Below, piece after piece: positions 3,684 through 10,834 of a stretch of DNA of 64,000 bases. A program made the position numbers and the translations under genes. The DNA is taken from contig JAAWAC010000007.1 in assembly GCA_022791975.1 (NCBI GenBank), positions 62,001 to 126,000 on the forward strand. The letters are read 5' to 3'. This DNA comes from Lachnospiraceae bacterium (GTDB taxonomy: Bacteria; Bacillota; Clostridia; Lachnospirales; Lachnospiraceae). The notes under the pieces were generated by a model. That model made no database searches. It was not told the DNA's origin and saw only the letters and a program-made list of their open reading frames with translations. Position 1 is the first letter of the stretch. Each line of letters opens with the position of its first letter.

Positions 3684-4928
3684 TTACCGAAGATTTTCCT
3701 TTACCGCCAAGGCAATGGATACCTCCGGCCTGTAGTAAGGAATCAAGGTAGCCTGCAAAGCGTGATAGATATCCGGTTTTCCCGGCCAAACCGTGCCTAT
3801 CACCCGGTTCTCCCGATCCATCTGATGGAACCAGGATCCATGGCTATGATCCAGCACCTTCTCATCCAGATACTCCATAAATTCCCCATAATCCCGGGCA
3901 TACTCCTCCTTCCCTGTTACCCGGTACAGCACAGCAGAGGTATTGATGGCCTCGGCTAAAGTCCAGTGCATTCTGTCATGGACCACCGGCTTTCCCTCCC
4001 AGTCTGTGGTATAGACAAGTCCGGGAGCACCGTCAGCCATCCAGCCATCCGAAACAGCCCTGCAAAACAAATGCTCTGCTGCGTCCAGATAGATCCCCCG
4101 GGTTTTTGTGTCCTCCTTGCAGGCGGAAAGAGCCCACTGGGTAATCAAACGGCTCCACTCAATGCCGTGGCCCGGGGTGGCTCCATAGGGCTTAAAGGGA
4201 TCGTCCGGCCGCTCCTTGTTGCACGTAAGATCCATGGCCCAGTCTCTGGTAAAATGCTCCGGAATCCTCCATTGATTTTCCCGGGCCCATTCCACCGTCC
4301 GTGCAATTATCCGCCCAGCCCGCTTCCGGTATTCCTCCTTGCCAGCCACATCCGCCACAGCCAAAAATGCCTCCACCGTGTGCATGTTGGCATTCATACC
4401 ACGGTAGTCATCCATCTGGGTAAATTCCGTATTCCAGGTATCGCAGGAAAGCCCTTCCTCCTCATTCCAAAACCGGAGATCATAGAGGGATAAAGCCTCC
4501 TCCAAAAGTTCCCCGGCTTCGGGCACTCCCACCAGCATCCCGGAGGTAGCCGCTAAAATCACAAAGGCGTGGGCGTAGCAAAGCTTACCGGACAAAGGCT
4601 TGTTCTCCTGATTGAGCCCCACATACCAACCTCCGTGCTCCCTATCCTTCAACTCTCCTCGAAGTCCCTGAAGCGCTGCCTTTACAAGCTCCCCACTTCC
4701 CTCATGTCCCAGAAAATGCCCTATGCTGTACACATGAGCCATGCGGGCGGTCACATAGGTCTCCCGATCCTTCTCCTTCCAGGGCGTGCCATTCTCCCCC
4801 AAGTAATAGGAACTGCCTCCCGGGGCAGCAAACCTGTGCCCAAAACGAAGCAGACCCTCCCGGATCTGCCCCAAAAACCCTCTATTTTCCTCCGTGTCAA
4901 TCTGATATTTTCTGCTCTCTCTCTCCAT
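3684..4928 (-). CDS. AGE-family aldose-ketose isomerase (YihS-like)
   Basis: A 414-residue N-acylglucosamine 2-epimerase superfamily protein with an (alpha/alpha)6 barrel. It resembles Escherichia coli YihS, which isomerises sulfoquinovose and also mannose: matching blocks are YVTARMAHVYSIG, DYRGMNANMHTVEAFL, YGATPGHGIEWSRL and GKPDIYHALQ. The three YihS histidines appear to be conserved at H183, H254 and H389. No other sulfoquinovose-pathway gene is seen next to it, so mannose/fructose/glucose or a related aldose is as likely a substrate. It has its own promoter (5006-5033) and follows the glucarate genes, which suggests sugar catabolism. The family call is firm; the substrate is not. Confidence 0.85.
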   Translation of the reverse strand: MERESRKYQIDTEENRGFLGQIREGLLRFGHRFAAPGGSSYYLGENGTPWKEKDRETYVTARMAHVYSIGHFLGHEGSGELVKAALQGLRGELKDREHGGWYVGLNQENKPLSGKLCYAHAFVILAATSGMLVGVPEAGELLEEALSLYDLRFWNEEEGLSCDTWNTEFTQMDDYRGMNANMHTVEAFLAVADVAGKEEYRKRAGRIIARTVEWARENQWRIPEHFTRDWAMDLTCNKERPDDPFKPYGATPGHGIEWSRLITQWALSACKEDTKTRGIYLDAAEHLFCRAVSDGWMADGAPGLVYTTDWEGKPVVHDRMHWTLAEAINTSAVLYRVTGKEEYARDYGEFMEYLDEKVLDHSHGSWFHQMDRENRVIGTVWPGKPDIYHALQATLIPYYRPEVSIALAVKENLR

Positions 4929-5005: not shown

Positions 5006-5033
5006 ATTCTAACATTTGGGAAGTGTTTGTCAA
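5006..5033 (-). promoter_or_regulatory. sigma-A promoter of the YihS-like gene
   Basis: TTGACA-N16-TAGAAT on the minus strand. The -35 box overlaps the stop codon of the upstream flavoprotein gene, so the isomerase can be transcribed independently of the gud block. Confidence 0.7.
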
Positions 5034-6250
5034 CGTTTTTTCTCCAGATAACGTATCATGGCATAGGCCGCCTTTTTTGCCTCCTCCACGGCATGAACCA
5101 CAGTTTTCGGTCCGTGCACCACATCCCCGGCTGCAAAGACGCCTTCCCGGGTAGTCATATGATGTTCATCTGTGATCAGAAGCCCTTTGTCCGAGCCCTC
5201 CAGGTTGTGGGTGGTCATAATCAGCTTATTCTTAGGCCCCTGACTCACAGAGATAATGGTGGAATCTGCGTACACCTGTTCCCTCTCCTCCCCATAGCCC
5301 ACAACCCTGTCGTTGTGATCAAAGACGGAATTTTTAAACACCGGCCCCAGAGGGGTAATCTCCTCTATGGCCTTCCCGTAGACAAACTCCGCCCCGTCCA
5401 GGCGGGCATAGCGCATTTCATGGGAGCTGGCTGTGGCATTTTTCCCTCTGGCATAGAGGGTCACCCTCTGGGCTCCGTTGCGAAAGGCGGTCCGTGCCAC
5501 ATCCATGGCCACATTTCCCATTCCGATAATGGCCACATTCTCCCCCAGATCATAGGCGGAGGGATTTACTAAGTAAGAGATCCCAAAATGCACGCTGGCC
5601 AGGCATTCCCCCTTAATGCCTAGGGTCTTGGGACGCCAAACACCAGTTCCCACAAATACAGCCCCATAGCCGTCCCGAAAAAGATTTTCAATGTTCAGGG
5701 CCCCGCCCATCACCGTGTTGGGACGAATCTGAATGCCCATTTTCAGCATATTCTCTTTGTACCGGGTGAGGACGCTTTTAGGCAGGCGAAAATCCGGAAT
5801 CCCATACTGCATCATGCCGCCAATTTTGTCCTTCTCCTCAAAGATAGTGACCCCGTAGCCCGCCCGGGCCAGAATCATAGCCGCCGTCATGCCCGCAGGT
5901 CCGCTGCCAATCACCGCCACCGTCTGGTCCCTCTTCTCAATCTTAGGGACCGTCATCCGATCCAGATAAGCGCCGGAAATATATTTCTCAATCTCATAGA
6001 ACTGCACCGGCGCTCCCTTTTTTCCCAGCACACAATGACCGGCACACTGGCTCTCATGATTGCAGACCGCAGCACAGACGGCAGACATGGGATTGTTCTC
6101 GAACAGCTCCTTTCCCGCCTCCATAAGCTTATTCTCCCGAAAGAGCTGAATCATCCGGGGAATGGGCGTATGGATGGGACAATGTTCCTGACAGAGAGGC
6201 CTTTTGCAGTTCAGACACCGCTCCGCCTCGTTTTCAATATGTAAGCTCAT
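5030..6250 (-). CDS. GltD-like NAD(P)-dependent FAD/Fe-S oxidoreductase
   Basis: A 406-residue member of the glutamate synthase small subunit / NfnB / PreT family. The N-terminus has the Fe-S cysteines CLNCKRPLCQEHCP and CAAVC-x6-CAGHC, followed by the FAD Rossmann motif VIGSGPAGMTAA, the NAD(P) motif IIGMGNVAMDVA and the C-terminal FAD motif FAAGDVVHGP. I chose the second ATG (MSLHIENEAERC), which has AAGGGGG upstream; the longer start overlaps the preceding gene. Known relatives shuttle electrons between NAD(P)H and a partner protein. It is co-directional and nearly contiguous with a DapA-type aldolase and glucarate dehydratase, suggesting a redox step in sugar-acid breakdown, but no partner enzyme is identified. 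Confidence 0.85.
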   Translation of the reverse strand: MSLHIENEAERCLNCKRPLCQEHCPIHTPIPRMIQLFRENKLMEAGKELFENNPMSAVCAAVCNHESQCAGHCVLGKKGAPVQFYEIEKYISGAYLDRMTVPKIEKRDQTVAVIGSGPAGMTAAMILARAGYGVTIFEEKDKIGGMMQYGIPDFRLPKSVLTRYKENMLKMGIQIRPNTVMGGALNIENLFRDGYGAVFVGTGVWRPKTLGIKGECLASVHFGISYLVNPSAYDLGENVAIIGMGNVAMDVARTAFRNGAQRVTLYARGKNATASSHEMRYARLDGAEFVYGKAIEEITPLGPVFKNSVFDHNDRVVGYGEEREQVYADSTIISVSQGPKNKLIMTTHNLEGSDKGLLITDEHHMTTREGVFAAGDVVHGPKTVVHAVEEAKKAAYAMIRYLEKKR

Positions 6251-6266
6251 GGAATTCCCCCTTTGT

Positions 6267-7169
6267 TTACCCAAGCAAGCCTGCCTTTTTCATCTCTGTG
6301 CGCATGTGGGTAAGAACCGGACCCTCCGGTGTGGGCAGGCTGGGCCGGTAGGGCGCACCCACGGGAAGCCCCCGAAGCCTAGCCAGATCCTTGGAGGCCA
6401 CCGGGAAGCTGGCTCCGTCCATGGACAGCCGCACAGGATTAAGCTTAAACTGGGCCTCCAGGGAACCTGCCAGATCCCCCGCCACATAGCTGTTGTAGAT
6501 ATCCGTAATAAGCTCCGGCATAAAGTTAGCCGCCGTACAAACACCTCCCACAGCTCCATGGCACAGGGAAGCATACAGCAAGGTATCCTTGCCTCCGAAT
6601 ACCCGGAAGCCCACATCCCGGGTCCGCCGGATAAATTCCGCTGTCTGGGTAATATCCCCGCTGGTGTCCTTCATGCCCACAATATTGTCCACCTCATGGG
6701 CCAGGCGTTCCACCAGAGCTCCGGACATGGTATATCCCACCCGACCGGGGTTGTTGTAGAGAAGCACAGGGGTTTCCGGCACTGCCTCCGCAATGGTTTT
6801 AAAATGCTCAAAGAGCTCTTCCTCTGTGGGCTTTAAAAACATGGGCTGGAGAATGGAGATTCCCGCTGCCCCCCTTTTTTGGGCTGTCCGTGCTAGACGG
6901 ACACACTTTTTGGTGCTAATAGCCCCGATTCCAAAGTACACAGGCACCCGGCCATCCGCCTGGTCCACCATGATCTGAAGGCCCCGCTCCATCTCCTCCT
7001 CCTCAATGGCGTAGAACTCTCCATTGCTTCCAAAGGCCAAAATTCCCAGCACCCCTCCGGCGATCACATAGTCCACCTGCTGGCGCATCAGCGCCTCGTC
7101 GATCCGCTCCTCCTCATCGATGGGCGTGAGAATAGGCACAATAACCCCCTTGATAAAATCCGTATGCAT
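6267..7169 (-). CDS. DapA/NanA-family class I aldolase, probably keto-deoxy sugar acid
   Basis: A 300-residue TIM-barrel lyase/synthase of the dihydrodipicolinate synthase superfamily. The Schiff-base lysine is in GMKDTSGD (K167), the proton-relay tyrosine in LLYNNPGR (Y138), and the carboxylate loop reads GSNGE in place of GTTGE. The start at 7169 (MHTDFIKG) has AGGAGGG upstream; the longer ORF start has none. True DapA acts in lysine synthesis, but this gene lies directly after glucarate dehydratase, so it more likely cleaves or dehydrates 5-keto-4-deoxyglucarate or a similar acid. The loop change fits a non-DapA substrate. The exact reaction is inference. Confidence 0.8.
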   Translation of the reverse strand: MHTDFIKGVIVPILTPIDEEERIDEALMRQQVDYVIAGGVLGILAFGSNGEFYAIEEEEMERGLQIMVDQADGRVPVYFGIGAISTKKCVRLARTAQKRGAAGISILQPMFLKPTEEELFEHFKTIAEAVPETPVLLYNNPGRVGYTMSGALVERLAHEVDNIVGMKDTSGDITQTAEFIRRTRDVGFRVFGGKDTLLYASLCHGAVGGVCTAANFMPELITDIYNSYVAGDLAGSLEAQFKLNPVRLSMDGASFPVASKDLARLRGLPVGAPYRPSLPTPEGPVLTHMRTEMKKAGLLG

Positions 7170-7245
7170 GGATATCCCTCCTGCTGATTTATGCAAATTT
7201 TCTTGCCTTTGTCATTTCCCTCTATGATGCAGGAAACCCTTTTTC

Positions 7246-8571
7246 CTACCGCACCAGGCAGGGCTTTTTGGCGTGAAAGGTCCATCCGGGAATCAGATAC
7301 TGCATCACCACAGAGTCATCCCGCCCACCCAGGCAGTTATCCAGATAAAGGGCATGGGCCTTTTTCACCTGCTCCATATCCACCTCAATGCCAAGTCCCG
7401 GCTTTTTAGGAACCTCCACGCAGCCGTCCTTGATTTGCAGGGGCTCCCTGGTCAGCCGCTCCAGGCCCTCCTGCCAGATCCAGTGGGTATCCAGGGCATT
7501 ATATTCCCCGGGAACCGCCGCTCCCACCTGGGTAAACATGGCCAGGGAAATATCAAAGTGATTGTTGGAGTGGGAACCCCAGGTATAGCCAAAGTCATGG
7601 CACATCTGAGCCACCCGCACAGAGCCGCTCATAGTCCAGAAATGAGGGTCCGCCAGAATAATATCCACCGCCTGGGATTCCAGGGAATGGCCCACCTCTC
7701 TCCAGTCCGTGGCAATCATATTGGTGGCTGTGGGAAAGCCGGTCCTTCTGCGAAACTCACTCATAATCTCCCGCCCGGAATACACGCCCTCAGCGCCGCA
7801 GGGGTCCTCGCAGTAGGTCAAAATTCCCTCCATGCCTTTTACATACTCTATGGCCTCCTTGAGAAGCCAGCCTCCATTGGGGTCCAAATCGATCCGAGCC
7901 TTTGGAAAGGCCTTTTTAAGCTCCCGGATCACCTCCATCTCCTGGTCTCCTGGAAGCACGCCCCCTTTAAGCTTAAAGTCCTGGAATCCATATTTCTCCT
8001 GGGTGGCCCGGGCAAAGGCCACGATTTTGTCGGCTGTTAACGCCTCCTCATGGCGAAGCCGGTACCACTCACAATCGCTCTCCGGCTCCTCATCATAGGG
8101 AAGATCCGTCTTTTTCCGGTCTCCCACAAAGAACAGATATCCCAGCATCCGCACCTGATCTCTCTGCTGTCCGTCCCCCAAAAGCTCGCACACGGGAACC
8201 CCCAGCTGTTTCCCCAAAAGATCCAGGCAAGGCGCCTCAATGGCTGTACACACGTGGACACCGGTGCGCAGATCAAAGGTCTGGTTTCCCCGCACATCCA
8301 CCTCGCCCCGGGAATCCAGATACCGGCGCACCTTTAAAAGGGTACTCTTATACTCCTCCACCCGGGTACCCTCCACAAGGGATATGCACGCCTTTAAAGC
8401 CTCTGTGATCTTCTTCCCTCCCGGCACCTCGCCCACACCCAGTTCCCCATTCTCACTGTGAAGAATCACGATGTTTCTGGTAAAAAAAGGTGCATGGGCG
8501 CCGCTTAGATTCAGCTCCATACAATCTTTGCCTGCTACGGGAAATACCTCCATTTTTACAATCCTTGCCAT
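7246..8571 (-). CDS. gudD: glucarate dehydratase
   Basis: An enolase-superfamily enzyme of 441 residues that dehydrates D-glucarate (and L-idarate) to 5-keto-4-deoxyglucarate. The E. coli GudD catalytic set can be placed with a constant offset of five: K200/K202 in FKLKGG, D230 in DLDPNGGW, E255 in CEDPCG, N284 in [10 protein letters not shown] and H334 in GSHSNNHFD. The GRETA-like length and the C-terminal block also fit. It opens the run gudD - DapA-type aldolase - GltD-like flavoprotein and starts at an ATG behind AAAGGGGAG. The upstream regulator gene points the same way and may control it. Confidence 0.93.
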
Positions 8572-8914
8572 TTGAAACTCCCCTTTCTTTTGATTGTCCT
8601 TTTCTATGCTCTTTTCCTGCCTATTCCTCTTGCCTTTTCAGACCTCCGGGACTTCCCTAGTTCTTATATTGGTATTGTAAGATAAACCAGCCAAAAAAAC
8701 CATTGGCACAATCTCTAAAAGAGGCAGGCTATTTTGATCAGACTGCCATATTTTCAAATTTTGAAATTTTTATTTCATTTTATTTAGAAATAATTTCACT
8801 TTTTTAGATATTCCCGATATTTATATGAAGATTGCAATACAAGAAAATATTCTTGAAATACTTCTTACATATTTTGAAATATTTTGCAAACCGCCCAATT
8901 CCCACGGCCCTCCC
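8572..8914. promoter_or_regulatory. A+T-rich gap upstream of gudD with a dyad
   Basis: This 343-base gap holds no gene. GGCAGGCT (8723-8730) and AGACTGCC (8740-8747) form an inverted repeat with 9 bases between the arms; on the minus strand it is followed by TCTTTT, so it could be the terminator of the regulator gene or an operator for gudD. I looked on the minus strand for a sigma-54 promoter (TGGC-N8-TGC) and found none. A possible -10 box TACAAT lies near 8675, without a good -35. Confidence 0.45.
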
Positions 8915-10834
8915 CTATGCCTTCTCATAGTTAGCCTCTATCCCATATTTTTTCATCCGCCTCCACAGAGTGGTGGTGCTGATCCCAAGCTCCTGGGCCG
9001 CCAGCTGCCGGTTTCCTCTGTGTCTCTCCAGCACTGCACTAAGCTTAGCCGCCTGAGGAGACTTGTACACCACGATCTCCTTCTCCCCTGCCCGTTCCCG
9101 GATACTGGGATACAATTCCCCGTAAAGCCTCTCCATCAATCCCTGGTCCACCCTGCGCTTTTCCGCCTCCAGCACCAGGCGCTCGCAAAAGGCTCGCAGC
9201 TGTAAAAGATTTCCTCTCCAGACAAGGTTCTTCAGACACTCGTATGCTCCGGCGGTAAGGGTCAGATGCTTATTGTATTTTCGGGAATATTCCTGAAAGA
9301 ATCGGTTGAAGTAGAAGACCAGATCCTCAGGCCTCTGCTTTAAATGGGGGATCTCCACCGTTAGCCCTTGGAGCAGGTAAAACAGCTCCTGACAAAATTT
9401 ACCAGTTTTTACCAGAAAAAGAAGATTTTCCTCCGAAAATCCGATGATTCGCACATCCGAACTGTCCAAGGGCAAGGCATCTGTCCTTGTGACAAAACCT
9501 CCCTGGAGGATTCTCCCCAACTGGTGCTGGACTGGCAATGTAAGCTGACCCACATTTTGGATAAAAAGGGTTCCATGATTGGCCCTGGCCAGGGCTCCCC
9601 GCCGCCGGGTCTCCTCCCCTCCAGGGCCAGAAGGGCTTCCAAAAAAGGCTTCCGCCTGCTGCTCTTTTTCCAGAGCTCCCACATCCAGACTGAGAAAAGG
9701 ACCTGATTTTCTGGCGCTGTTATTGTGAATGGCCTGGGCTATGGAAAGATACTCCGTCCCCGCCTCCCCATACAGCAGAACGGGGCTGTCGGACAGAGCA
9801 TACTCCCTGGCTCTTTCCAGCGCCTTCTTCATAAGGGCATTCTCCGTGTAAATGGTCTGAAAGGTGTCCCGGGCGGTAAAGCCGGACAAAAAGGGATTCT
9901 GCTGCCTGGTGGAGCCTGTTCCTGTCCCCTCATGGACCTTATACAGGGACAGAATGGCTCCCGTCACCCTTCCGTCATACTGGATGGGCGCCATCATCAG
10001 CATCCAGGCCTGCCGCTGCAGAGTCACAGACACGGTATAATTTTCTCTTTTCCCTGAAAGAATCTTCTCCACAGCTTCCCTGTCAAACTCCGGGAACACC
10101 CTCTCCAGAGGAAGCCCCACCACCTCCTCGGCACTTTTTCCCAGAAGATTCTCCACCAGCTTATTGATCACAATCATAGTTCCAGCCCGGTTGATTTTGA
10201 TAATTCCCCCAAAGGAGGTATCCAGGACCGTTTCAAACTGGGCGGCATTCTGCATCTCCGCCTCCGCCGCATAGGCCATGCCCTTGGCCGTAAGCAGGGC
10301 CTCCCGAAGAGATTCCTCTGAGGAAGAAAACAGCAGGGAGGGATATCCCATTTTTTCCGCCTCCCTGCAAGTGATTTCTCCGCCTATAATCAAATCCGGC
10401 TTTAACCGGGACAGCTCTCTAAGACTGGGGATTGTATCCTCCATGTTACTCAAATACCTGATGGCAAGCTCCACATCCAAAAGCTCTCCCATATGGGACA
10501 GATCGCACAGCATATTTTCGTAGGCAATAAGACCAATGACAGGATGATCCTTTTTCACCAGCTTCTTTGCCTGTCTGATCAGCAGACCAATCTCCTGGGC
10601 GTGAAGGCGGATCTCCACCAGAGGAATGTTGGTATACTCCCTGATAAGCTTAGCCTGGTAGCCCCGGGCTATGAGAATATGGGCTCCCGCCGCCACGGCC
10701 TCCCGGGCTTCCTGCACCGCCTCCGCAGATTCTATGGCCTTGATGTAGGCCGCATCAATCTCCATTTCCTCCATAAGCCCCCGGGCGATCTCAAGCATTT
10801 TCTTTGTGGGAACCAAAAGAGCGATCTTAACCAT
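8915..10834 (-). CDS. PrpR-type sigma-54 activator homologue with degenerate AAA+ domain
   Basis: A 639-residue regulator in the order PrpR_N sensor (about 1-190), PAS (about 200-300), AAA+-like (about 325-560) and Fis-type HTH (about 595-635, NRQLAAQELGISTTTLWRRMKKYG). Every AAA+ landmark is changed: Walker A reads GEAGTEYL (usual GESGTGKE), Walker B GTLFIQNV (usual GTLFLDEI), the GAFTGA loop that touches sigma-54 is replaced by a Gly-rich stretch, and the arginine-finger block reads FCQELFYLLQ. It is therefore unlikely to hydrolyse ATP or open sigma-54 promoters. It lies upstream of gudD and behind the alaS terminator without a clear promoter of its own. It may repress or activate through sigma-A RNA polymerase. 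Confidence 0.85.
   Translation of the reverse strand: MVKIALLVPTKKMLEIARGLMEEMEIDAAYIKAIESAEAVQEAREAVAAGAHILIARGYQAKLIREYTNIPLVEIRLHAQEIGLLIRQAKKLVKKDHPVIGLIAYENMLCDLSHMGELLDVELAIRYLSNMEDTIPSLRELSRLKPDLIIGGEITCREAEKMGYPSLLFSSSEESLREALLTAKGMAYAAEAEMQNAAQFETVLDTSFGGIIKINRAGTMIVINKLVENLLGKSAEEVVGLPLERVFPEFDREAVEKILSGKRENYTVSVTLQRQAWMLMMAPIQYDGRVTGAILSLYKVHEGTGTGSTRQQNPFLSGFTARDTFQTIYTENALMKKALERAREYALSDSPVLLYGEAGTEYLSIAQAIHNNSARKSGPFLSLDVGALEKEQQAEAFFGSPSGPGGEETRRRGALARANHGTLFIQNVGQLTLPVQHQLGRILQGGFVTRTDALPLDSSDVRIIGFSEENLLFLVKTGKFCQELFYLLQGLTVEIPHLKQRPEDLVFYFNRFFQEYSRKYNKHLTLTAGAYECLKNLVWRGNLLQLRAFCERLVLEAEKRRVDQGLMERLYGELYPSIRERAGEKEIVVYKSPQAAKLSAVLERHRGNRQLAAQELGISTTTLWRRMKKYGIEANYEKA

Follow-up and report, generated by a model that had tools for sequence, protein, structure and literature searches.

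Can a regulator of PrpR-type descent still control transcription after the motifs of its AAA+ motor have been lost, and with which form of RNA polymerase would it work? The question is raised by a gene in a stretch of 64,000 nt (referred to as the window) from a Lachnospiraceae bacterium (GCA_022791975.1, contig JAAWAC010000007.1, positions 62,001-126,000 of the forward strand), whose genome assembly (G000) is 87% complete. The encoded protein matched five Pfam domains, namely PrpR_N, PAS, Sigma54_activat (5e-29), AAA_lid_14, and HTH_8, and the gene and its sensory and DNA-binding parts are located as follows.

8915-10834, minus strand: regulator gene, PrpR_N-PAS-pseudoAAA-lid-HTH_8, 639 aa, ATG start
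10259-10732, minus strand: PrpR_N sensor domain, residues 35-192 (Pfam PF06506, 5e-30; PDB relative 2q5c)
9932-10240, minus strand: PAS domain, about residues 199-301 (Pfam PF00989, 1.2e-6)
8939-9043, minus strand: Fis-type HTH, residues 598-632 (Pfam HTH_8, 4.8e-12)

The initial annotation had described the PrpR_N, PAS, and Fis-HTH parts as intact and the Walker A motif, Walker B motif, GAFTGA loop, and arginine-finger block as all changed. The former were all recognised by Pfam, and the latter was confirmed by alignment with three intact activators (L001 from the same genome, L021 from a congener, and E. coli PrpR). The altered elements identified in the alignment are listed below.

9746-9769, minus strand: lost Walker A, GEAGTEYL, residues 356-363 (GETGTGKE in intact relatives)
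9587-9649, minus strand: shortened L1 loop region (EEGAFTGAVKGGK), residues 396-416, without GAFTGA
9551-9574, minus strand: lost Walker B, GTLFIQNV, residues 421-428
9359-9400, minus strand: lost arginine-finger block, KFCQELFYLLQGLT, residues 479-492
9188-9214, minus strand: lost sensor II Arg, GNLLQLRAF, residues 541-549

Thus, GTIFLDE (GTxFLDE) of the intact activators reads GTLFIQN at Walker B of the regulator, ATN reads GFS at sensor I, and GNxRE reads GNLLQ at sensor II, while FREDLxYRL is replaced by FCQELFYLL, with both arginine fingers gone. An AAA+ fold and a Fis-type HTH were nevertheless detected by Pfam and in an AlphaFold2 model searched with Foldseek. The pseudo-AAA domain is predicted to keep the AAA+ fold, because the model (mean pLDDT of 76.5) matched the solved AAA+ domains of NtrC1 and PspF with a TM score, taken by target, of about 0.82-0.84. 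ATP might still bind through an unconventional pocket.

Relatives were sought in sets of relatives, of species genomes, and of 396 Lachnospiraceae genomes, and about 40 were found (31-83% identity) in Lachnospiraceae and some other Clostridia. The Fis-type HTH is the best-conserved domain of this family (mean pairwise identity 59%). Wherever the sequence of a relative covered the region, all of the about 40 members lacked the Walker A Gly-Lys, GAFTGA, the Walker B Asp, the second arginine finger, and the sensor II Arg. The exceptions are isolated single positions that restore no motif: in L079 and L017 an Asp is shifted within Walker B, and L035 has one Arg in its finger block. Single residues survive in some earlier-branching members, for example a Lys that follows GTE, the Walker B Glu, or the first of the arginine fingers, and in a few early-branching members the Walker B Glu alone is kept. 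The GTE that replaces GTGK is nearly fixed, with E361 present in 19/20. A maximum-likelihood tree built from the AAA-lid-HTH part separated the 37 degenerate rows, by a branch with 99/97 support, from the intact activators and from E. coli PrpR, TyrR, and DhaR. The losses are accordingly a trait of a clade, and the tree does not contradict a single origin for them.

The genes downstream of the regulator gene are as follows.

7246-8571, minus strand: GudD-like glucarate dehydratase, first gene downstream (TIGR03247, 7e-215, 714 bits, cut-off 829)
6267-7196, minus strand: DHDPS-family lyase with a KdgD or sugar-acid aldolase role (profile matches)
5030-6274, minus strand: GltD-like FAD/NAD(P) oxidoreductase of the same operon (profile matches)
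3684-4928, minus strand: AGE-family epimerase/isomerase, probable last gene of the operon (same gene order in congener L061)

The operon of the window therefore runs in the order GudD-like protein, DHDPS family, GltD-like oxidoreductase, and AGE family; the DHDPS-family protein scored far under the KdgD cut-off (109 vs 374). Related loci carry GudD, GarD (galactarate dehydratase), a GntP permease, glycerate kinase, DHDPS-family proteins, and GarR (tartronate semialdehyde reductase), the last scoring over its model cut-off, and the distant members L053 and L055 adjoin other enolase-superfamily dehydratases. Gene content ties the family to sugar-acid catabolism, and we infer that its ligand would be either an aldarate or some intermediate of the pathway. 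With GarR and glycerate kinase present in the related clusters, breakdown to pyruvate and tartronate semialdehyde by an aldolase route is likely. Four large genomes of 4.0-6.2 Mb (G199, G282, G378, and G405; L076, L078-L080, and L084-L091) hold three diverged members each, which suggests an expansion to several sugar acids. Two further observations were made in these neighbourhoods. A GltD-like flavoprotein lies near the regulator in three genera (window 5030-6274; L052 7847-9082; L035 1954-3144) and has no evident place in aldarate breakdown. An AATTTTACTTATT-like element, possibly a LysR-type site, precedes garD near LysR genes in L027 (8857-8976), L028 (upstream of 3051), and L039 (about 4150-4200).

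Next, the region upstream of gudD was examined for promoters. A scan for the -24/-12 element of sigma-54 promoters gave a best match of 8/12 positions in the 8572-8914 gap, which is the level of shuffled sequence, against 12/12 for a control from the same genome and 11/12 for E. coli prp. The absence of such a promoter, already noted in the initial annotation, was thereby upheld, and the other target gaps of the family were likewise without the element in the same scan. Comparison of the promoters pointed instead to a sigma-A promoter with two elements.

8696-8707, minus strand: conserved box GCCAATGGTTTT, containing the weak -35 TGGTTT
8674-8679, minus strand: predicted sigma-A -10 element TACAAT (equal box-to-(-10) distance in 7/7 promoters)

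The predicted transcription start lies near 8667. In all seven promoters, the box G(T/C)CA(A/G)T(A/G)G stands at a fixed distance from a TA(A/C)AAT -10 element, and its position sets a poor -35 (TAGTTT/TGGTTT) 17 bp from the -10. The box GTCAATAGTTTTTT was also considered as a common genome-wide element, which was rejected: three near matches were found in the genome of the window, no more than in the control.

The gaps beside the aldarate genes are rich in TTTCA/TGAAA half-sites. The palindrome TTTCA-N5-TGAAA occurred in 6 exact copies in 9 gaps, compared with 0.05 expected from dinucleotide shuffles, and the spacer of 5 stood alone among spacers of 0-14, except for one copy at 3. A second scan covered 17 loci, some of them partly included in the first, and gave 10 intergenic exact copies and 1 genic copy (0.322 vs 0.004 per kb, an 80-fold higher density). 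Two candidate operators, on neither strand in particular, were located in the window.

8865-8879: predicted distal operator, one mismatch to TTTCA-N5-TGAAA, centred at -205 (motif scan)
8752-8766: predicted proximal operator, exact TTTCA-N5-TGAAA, centred at -92 (sole exact copy in the window)

With respect to the predicted start, operators were centred at -92 to -94 in 7/7 promoters and at -205 to -219 in 6/7, a set that includes the close relatives window and L061 as well as L029 and L030. L092, from the held-out genus G233, has candidate operators at -207 and -93. In L093, which belongs to the genus of L050, they lie at -208 and -93; the distal site of L050 is at -219, and the spacing of the two loci differs by a 12-nt and a 1-nt indel, a net 11 or about one helical turn. 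Same-strand half-sites recurred at about 10.3 bp, with 0/3000 random placements as high; this phasing comes mainly from the window, L061, L039, and L050 and is absent in L029, L027, and L092. The -93/-207 geometry was seen only in the subclade near the window and relaxes in distant members: in L094 and L052 the promoter box is present, with no operator within one mismatch at these positions, L095 has a site at -124, and in several distant members no site was found in the scan of the loci. A second exact, A+T-rich copy in the genome of the window (L064 about 6212; G000 C58:9211-9225) lies beside an IclR-type gene. On its other side is an operon of genes for a dehydrogenase/reductase, a zinc-type alcohol dehydrogenase-like protein, and a TRAP-type transporter, the gene families around it having been read by eye from the sequences. 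This copy could be a second target, or else a site for the IclR-type protein.

We consider that the regulator is probably a one-component activator of glucarate/galactarate catabolism, descended from sigma-54 enhancer-binding proteins of the PrpR type, that no longer uses either ATP hydrolysis or sigma-54. The PrpR_N domain, with PAS, would sense a sugar diacid or pathway intermediate, and a dimer of the Fis-type HTH would bind TTTCA-N5-TGAAA, as the conservation of the motif beside the family genes suggests. Dimers may occupy the sites at about -93 and about -207 cooperatively, with further half-sites between them, and the dead AAA+ domain may serve as an oligomerisation scaffold. About -93 is a position from which CRP and other class I activators act, and the proximal dimer may aid the housekeeping RNA polymerase in a class I-like manner at a promoter whose -10 is good and whose -35 is poor. 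The ligand, DNA binding, start site, and activating sign of regulation are all inferred from sequence comparison. A wider proposal, which we put forward tentatively and with some doubt, is that the AAA+ motor has been turned into a nucleotide-free assembly scaffold in a large Lachnospiraceae activator family, in which a ligand-gated oligomer on a helically phased array (-93 to -207) would activate sigma-A promoters over an enhancer-like distance inherited from sigma-54 activation.

The main rival of the activator reading is a looping repressor, in which the aldarate promoter would be silenced by DNA looping or wrapping between -93 and -207 and released by the ligand. Its appeal lies in the helical phasing of the half-sites and in the two operators about 114 bp (11 helical turns) apart, which, together with the net 11-nt change (12-nt and 1-nt indels) between L050 and L093, resemble a looping or wrapping array. 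However, no conserved operator covers the -35/-10 or the start site, where most repressors bind, and the poor -35 (TGGTTT/TAGTTT) is as found in activator-dependent promoters. In addition, relatives without GAFTGA act as activators, DhaR and R. capsulatus NtrC being examples. Repression of a sigma-A promoter is therefore regarded as unlikely, and activation remains the preferred reading.

A continued need for sigma-54, for example if the protein formed mixed rings with an intact activator and was itself their inactive member, was weighed against the distribution of rpoN. No rpoN domain was found in the 87% complete assembly of the window. This absence is not decisive, because the assembly is incomplete, rpoN is present in two congeners, and the genome holds three perfect sigma-54 promoters; its use as support for sigma-54 independence was downgraded on account of these promoters. 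Two of the three, at C39:14910 and C39:17128, flank a canonical PrpR-type activator with all motifs (L001, on G000 C39; L063). The genome thus probably has rpoN, in a stretch that the assembly lacks, which speaks for a role of sigma-54, as does the predicted AAA+ fold. An anti-correlation of the family with rpoN was also tested and rejected, since the result was the opposite of that expected: the family is commoner in rpoN-bearing genomes (9/17 vs 53/379, p = 0.0003). This enrichment, which would favour a sigma-54 requirement, is perhaps due to lineage or genome size. Against the requirement stand the target gaps without -24/-12 elements and eight high-quality genomes (93-99% complete: G013, G040, G079, G092, G181, G233, G235, and G454, the last largely one contig of 3.12 Mb) that carry the family with no rpoN match and in which the degenerate protein is the only Sigma54_activat match at 1e-12. 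G136 (100% complete) lacks rpoN too, but has three Sigma54_activat matches. We therefore judge a need for sigma-54 to be very improbable. The persistence of the family in these eight genomes, the clade-wide losses, the fixed operator-to-(-10) geometry in the gaps next to aldarate genes, and the lack of -24/-12 elements support the earlier suggestion of a ligand-sensing DNA-binding protein that works with sigma-A polymerase.

It is just as hard to credit that some other factor uses the operator, the degenerate protein being only a neighbour in the cluster. LysR genes do occur in several clusters (L027, L052, L054, and L099), and the exact site at C58:9211 adjoins the IclR-type gene. On the other hand, no LysR match was found in the examined stretches of the window, L029, L030, L092, and L094 clusters, and the recognised regulator common to these five is the degenerate protein. 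Moreover, the E. coli prp and dha control regions, which are served by related HTH_8 proteins, have TTTCA/TGAAA half-sites, with other spacings.

Between the regulator and its congener copy (82% identical), dN/dS was 0.14 for the whole gene and 0.18 for the dead AAA domain, and the family, pseudo-AAA domain included, appears from these values to be under purifying selection. The motif losses do not reflect chance decay, because they are common to about 40 relatives, dN/dS is low, and the replacement motif is fixed. A decaying pseudogene, although some copies do decay (several frames in L038, two in L036), was dismissed as having a negligible chance of being correct, given frames intact in nearly all members and purifying selection across genera. 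The split copies, L036 5989-8179 in two frames and L038 6037-7575 in at least four, are broken genes or assembly errors.

Among known systems, the best NCBIfam match of the regulator was DhaR, the regulator of the E. coli dihydroxyacetone kinase operon (1.9e-61, residues 195-637), which is likewise without GAFTGA and the Walker B Asp-Glu and is reported to be sigma-70 dependent (PMC3162934). However, DhaR keeps a Walker A (GEEGVGK), is 27% identical over the C-terminal part, and lies outside the family in the tree, and the regulator scored 208 bits against a cut-off of 551; DhaR was thus ruled out as the parent family by motif, score, and tree. PrpR, the propionate regulator, shares the PrpR_N, AAA+, and HTH_8 architecture and the TTTCA/TGAAA half-sites in the prp control region, but its ATPase motifs are all intact, it has a -24/-12 target, and it serves a different operon; the regulator fell below the PrpR model cut-off (199.9 vs 499.2 bits). 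The glucarate/galactarate activator of enterobacteria, CdaR/SdaR, acts in the same pathway and belongs to a different protein family. GAFTGA is also lost or deleted in TyrR, HupR, VpsR, YplP, and the NtrC proteins of R. capsulatus and Caulobacter, which are reported or predicted to work at sigma-70-type promoters (PMC3162934; PMC10274813). For TyrR, DhaR, and HupR, the loss with a move to sigma-70 has been reported, and the same has been suggested for VpsR and YplP (PMC3162934). In our alignment, TyrR retains Walker A and B. ATP binding is reported to be required in the case of R. capsulatus NtrC, and both Walker motifs in that of Caulobacter NtrC (PMC10274813), whereas the regulator has no nucleotide motif left. 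A survey of Clostridiales activators was confined to genomes with sigma-54, and it lists PrpR_N domains and, in the section consulted, gives no description of the regulator family (PMC6615313). A search of open-access literature returned no description of the family, the operator, or a PrpR-type role in aldarate use. Precedents for sigma-54-independent activators therefore exist (TyrR, DhaR, and VpsR), and the extent of the loss, the promoter code, and the sugar-acid link seem to be new.

Activators without sigma-54 contact have been known as scattered cases; here, a whole family has apparently dropped nucleotide handling, with the fold kept under selection, and its automatic annotation as a "sigma-54 regulator" would be misleading. 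The earlier-branching members that hold single residues (the Walker A Lys, the Walker B Glu, or the first arginine finger) form a natural series for the order in which the motor died, and the family is a system for asking what an AAA+ fold does without ATP. A cultured carrier, [Ruminococcus] faecis JCM 15917 (L039), is at hand, and the operator and promoter geometry provides a testable galactarate/glucarate regulon in gut Lachnospiraceae.
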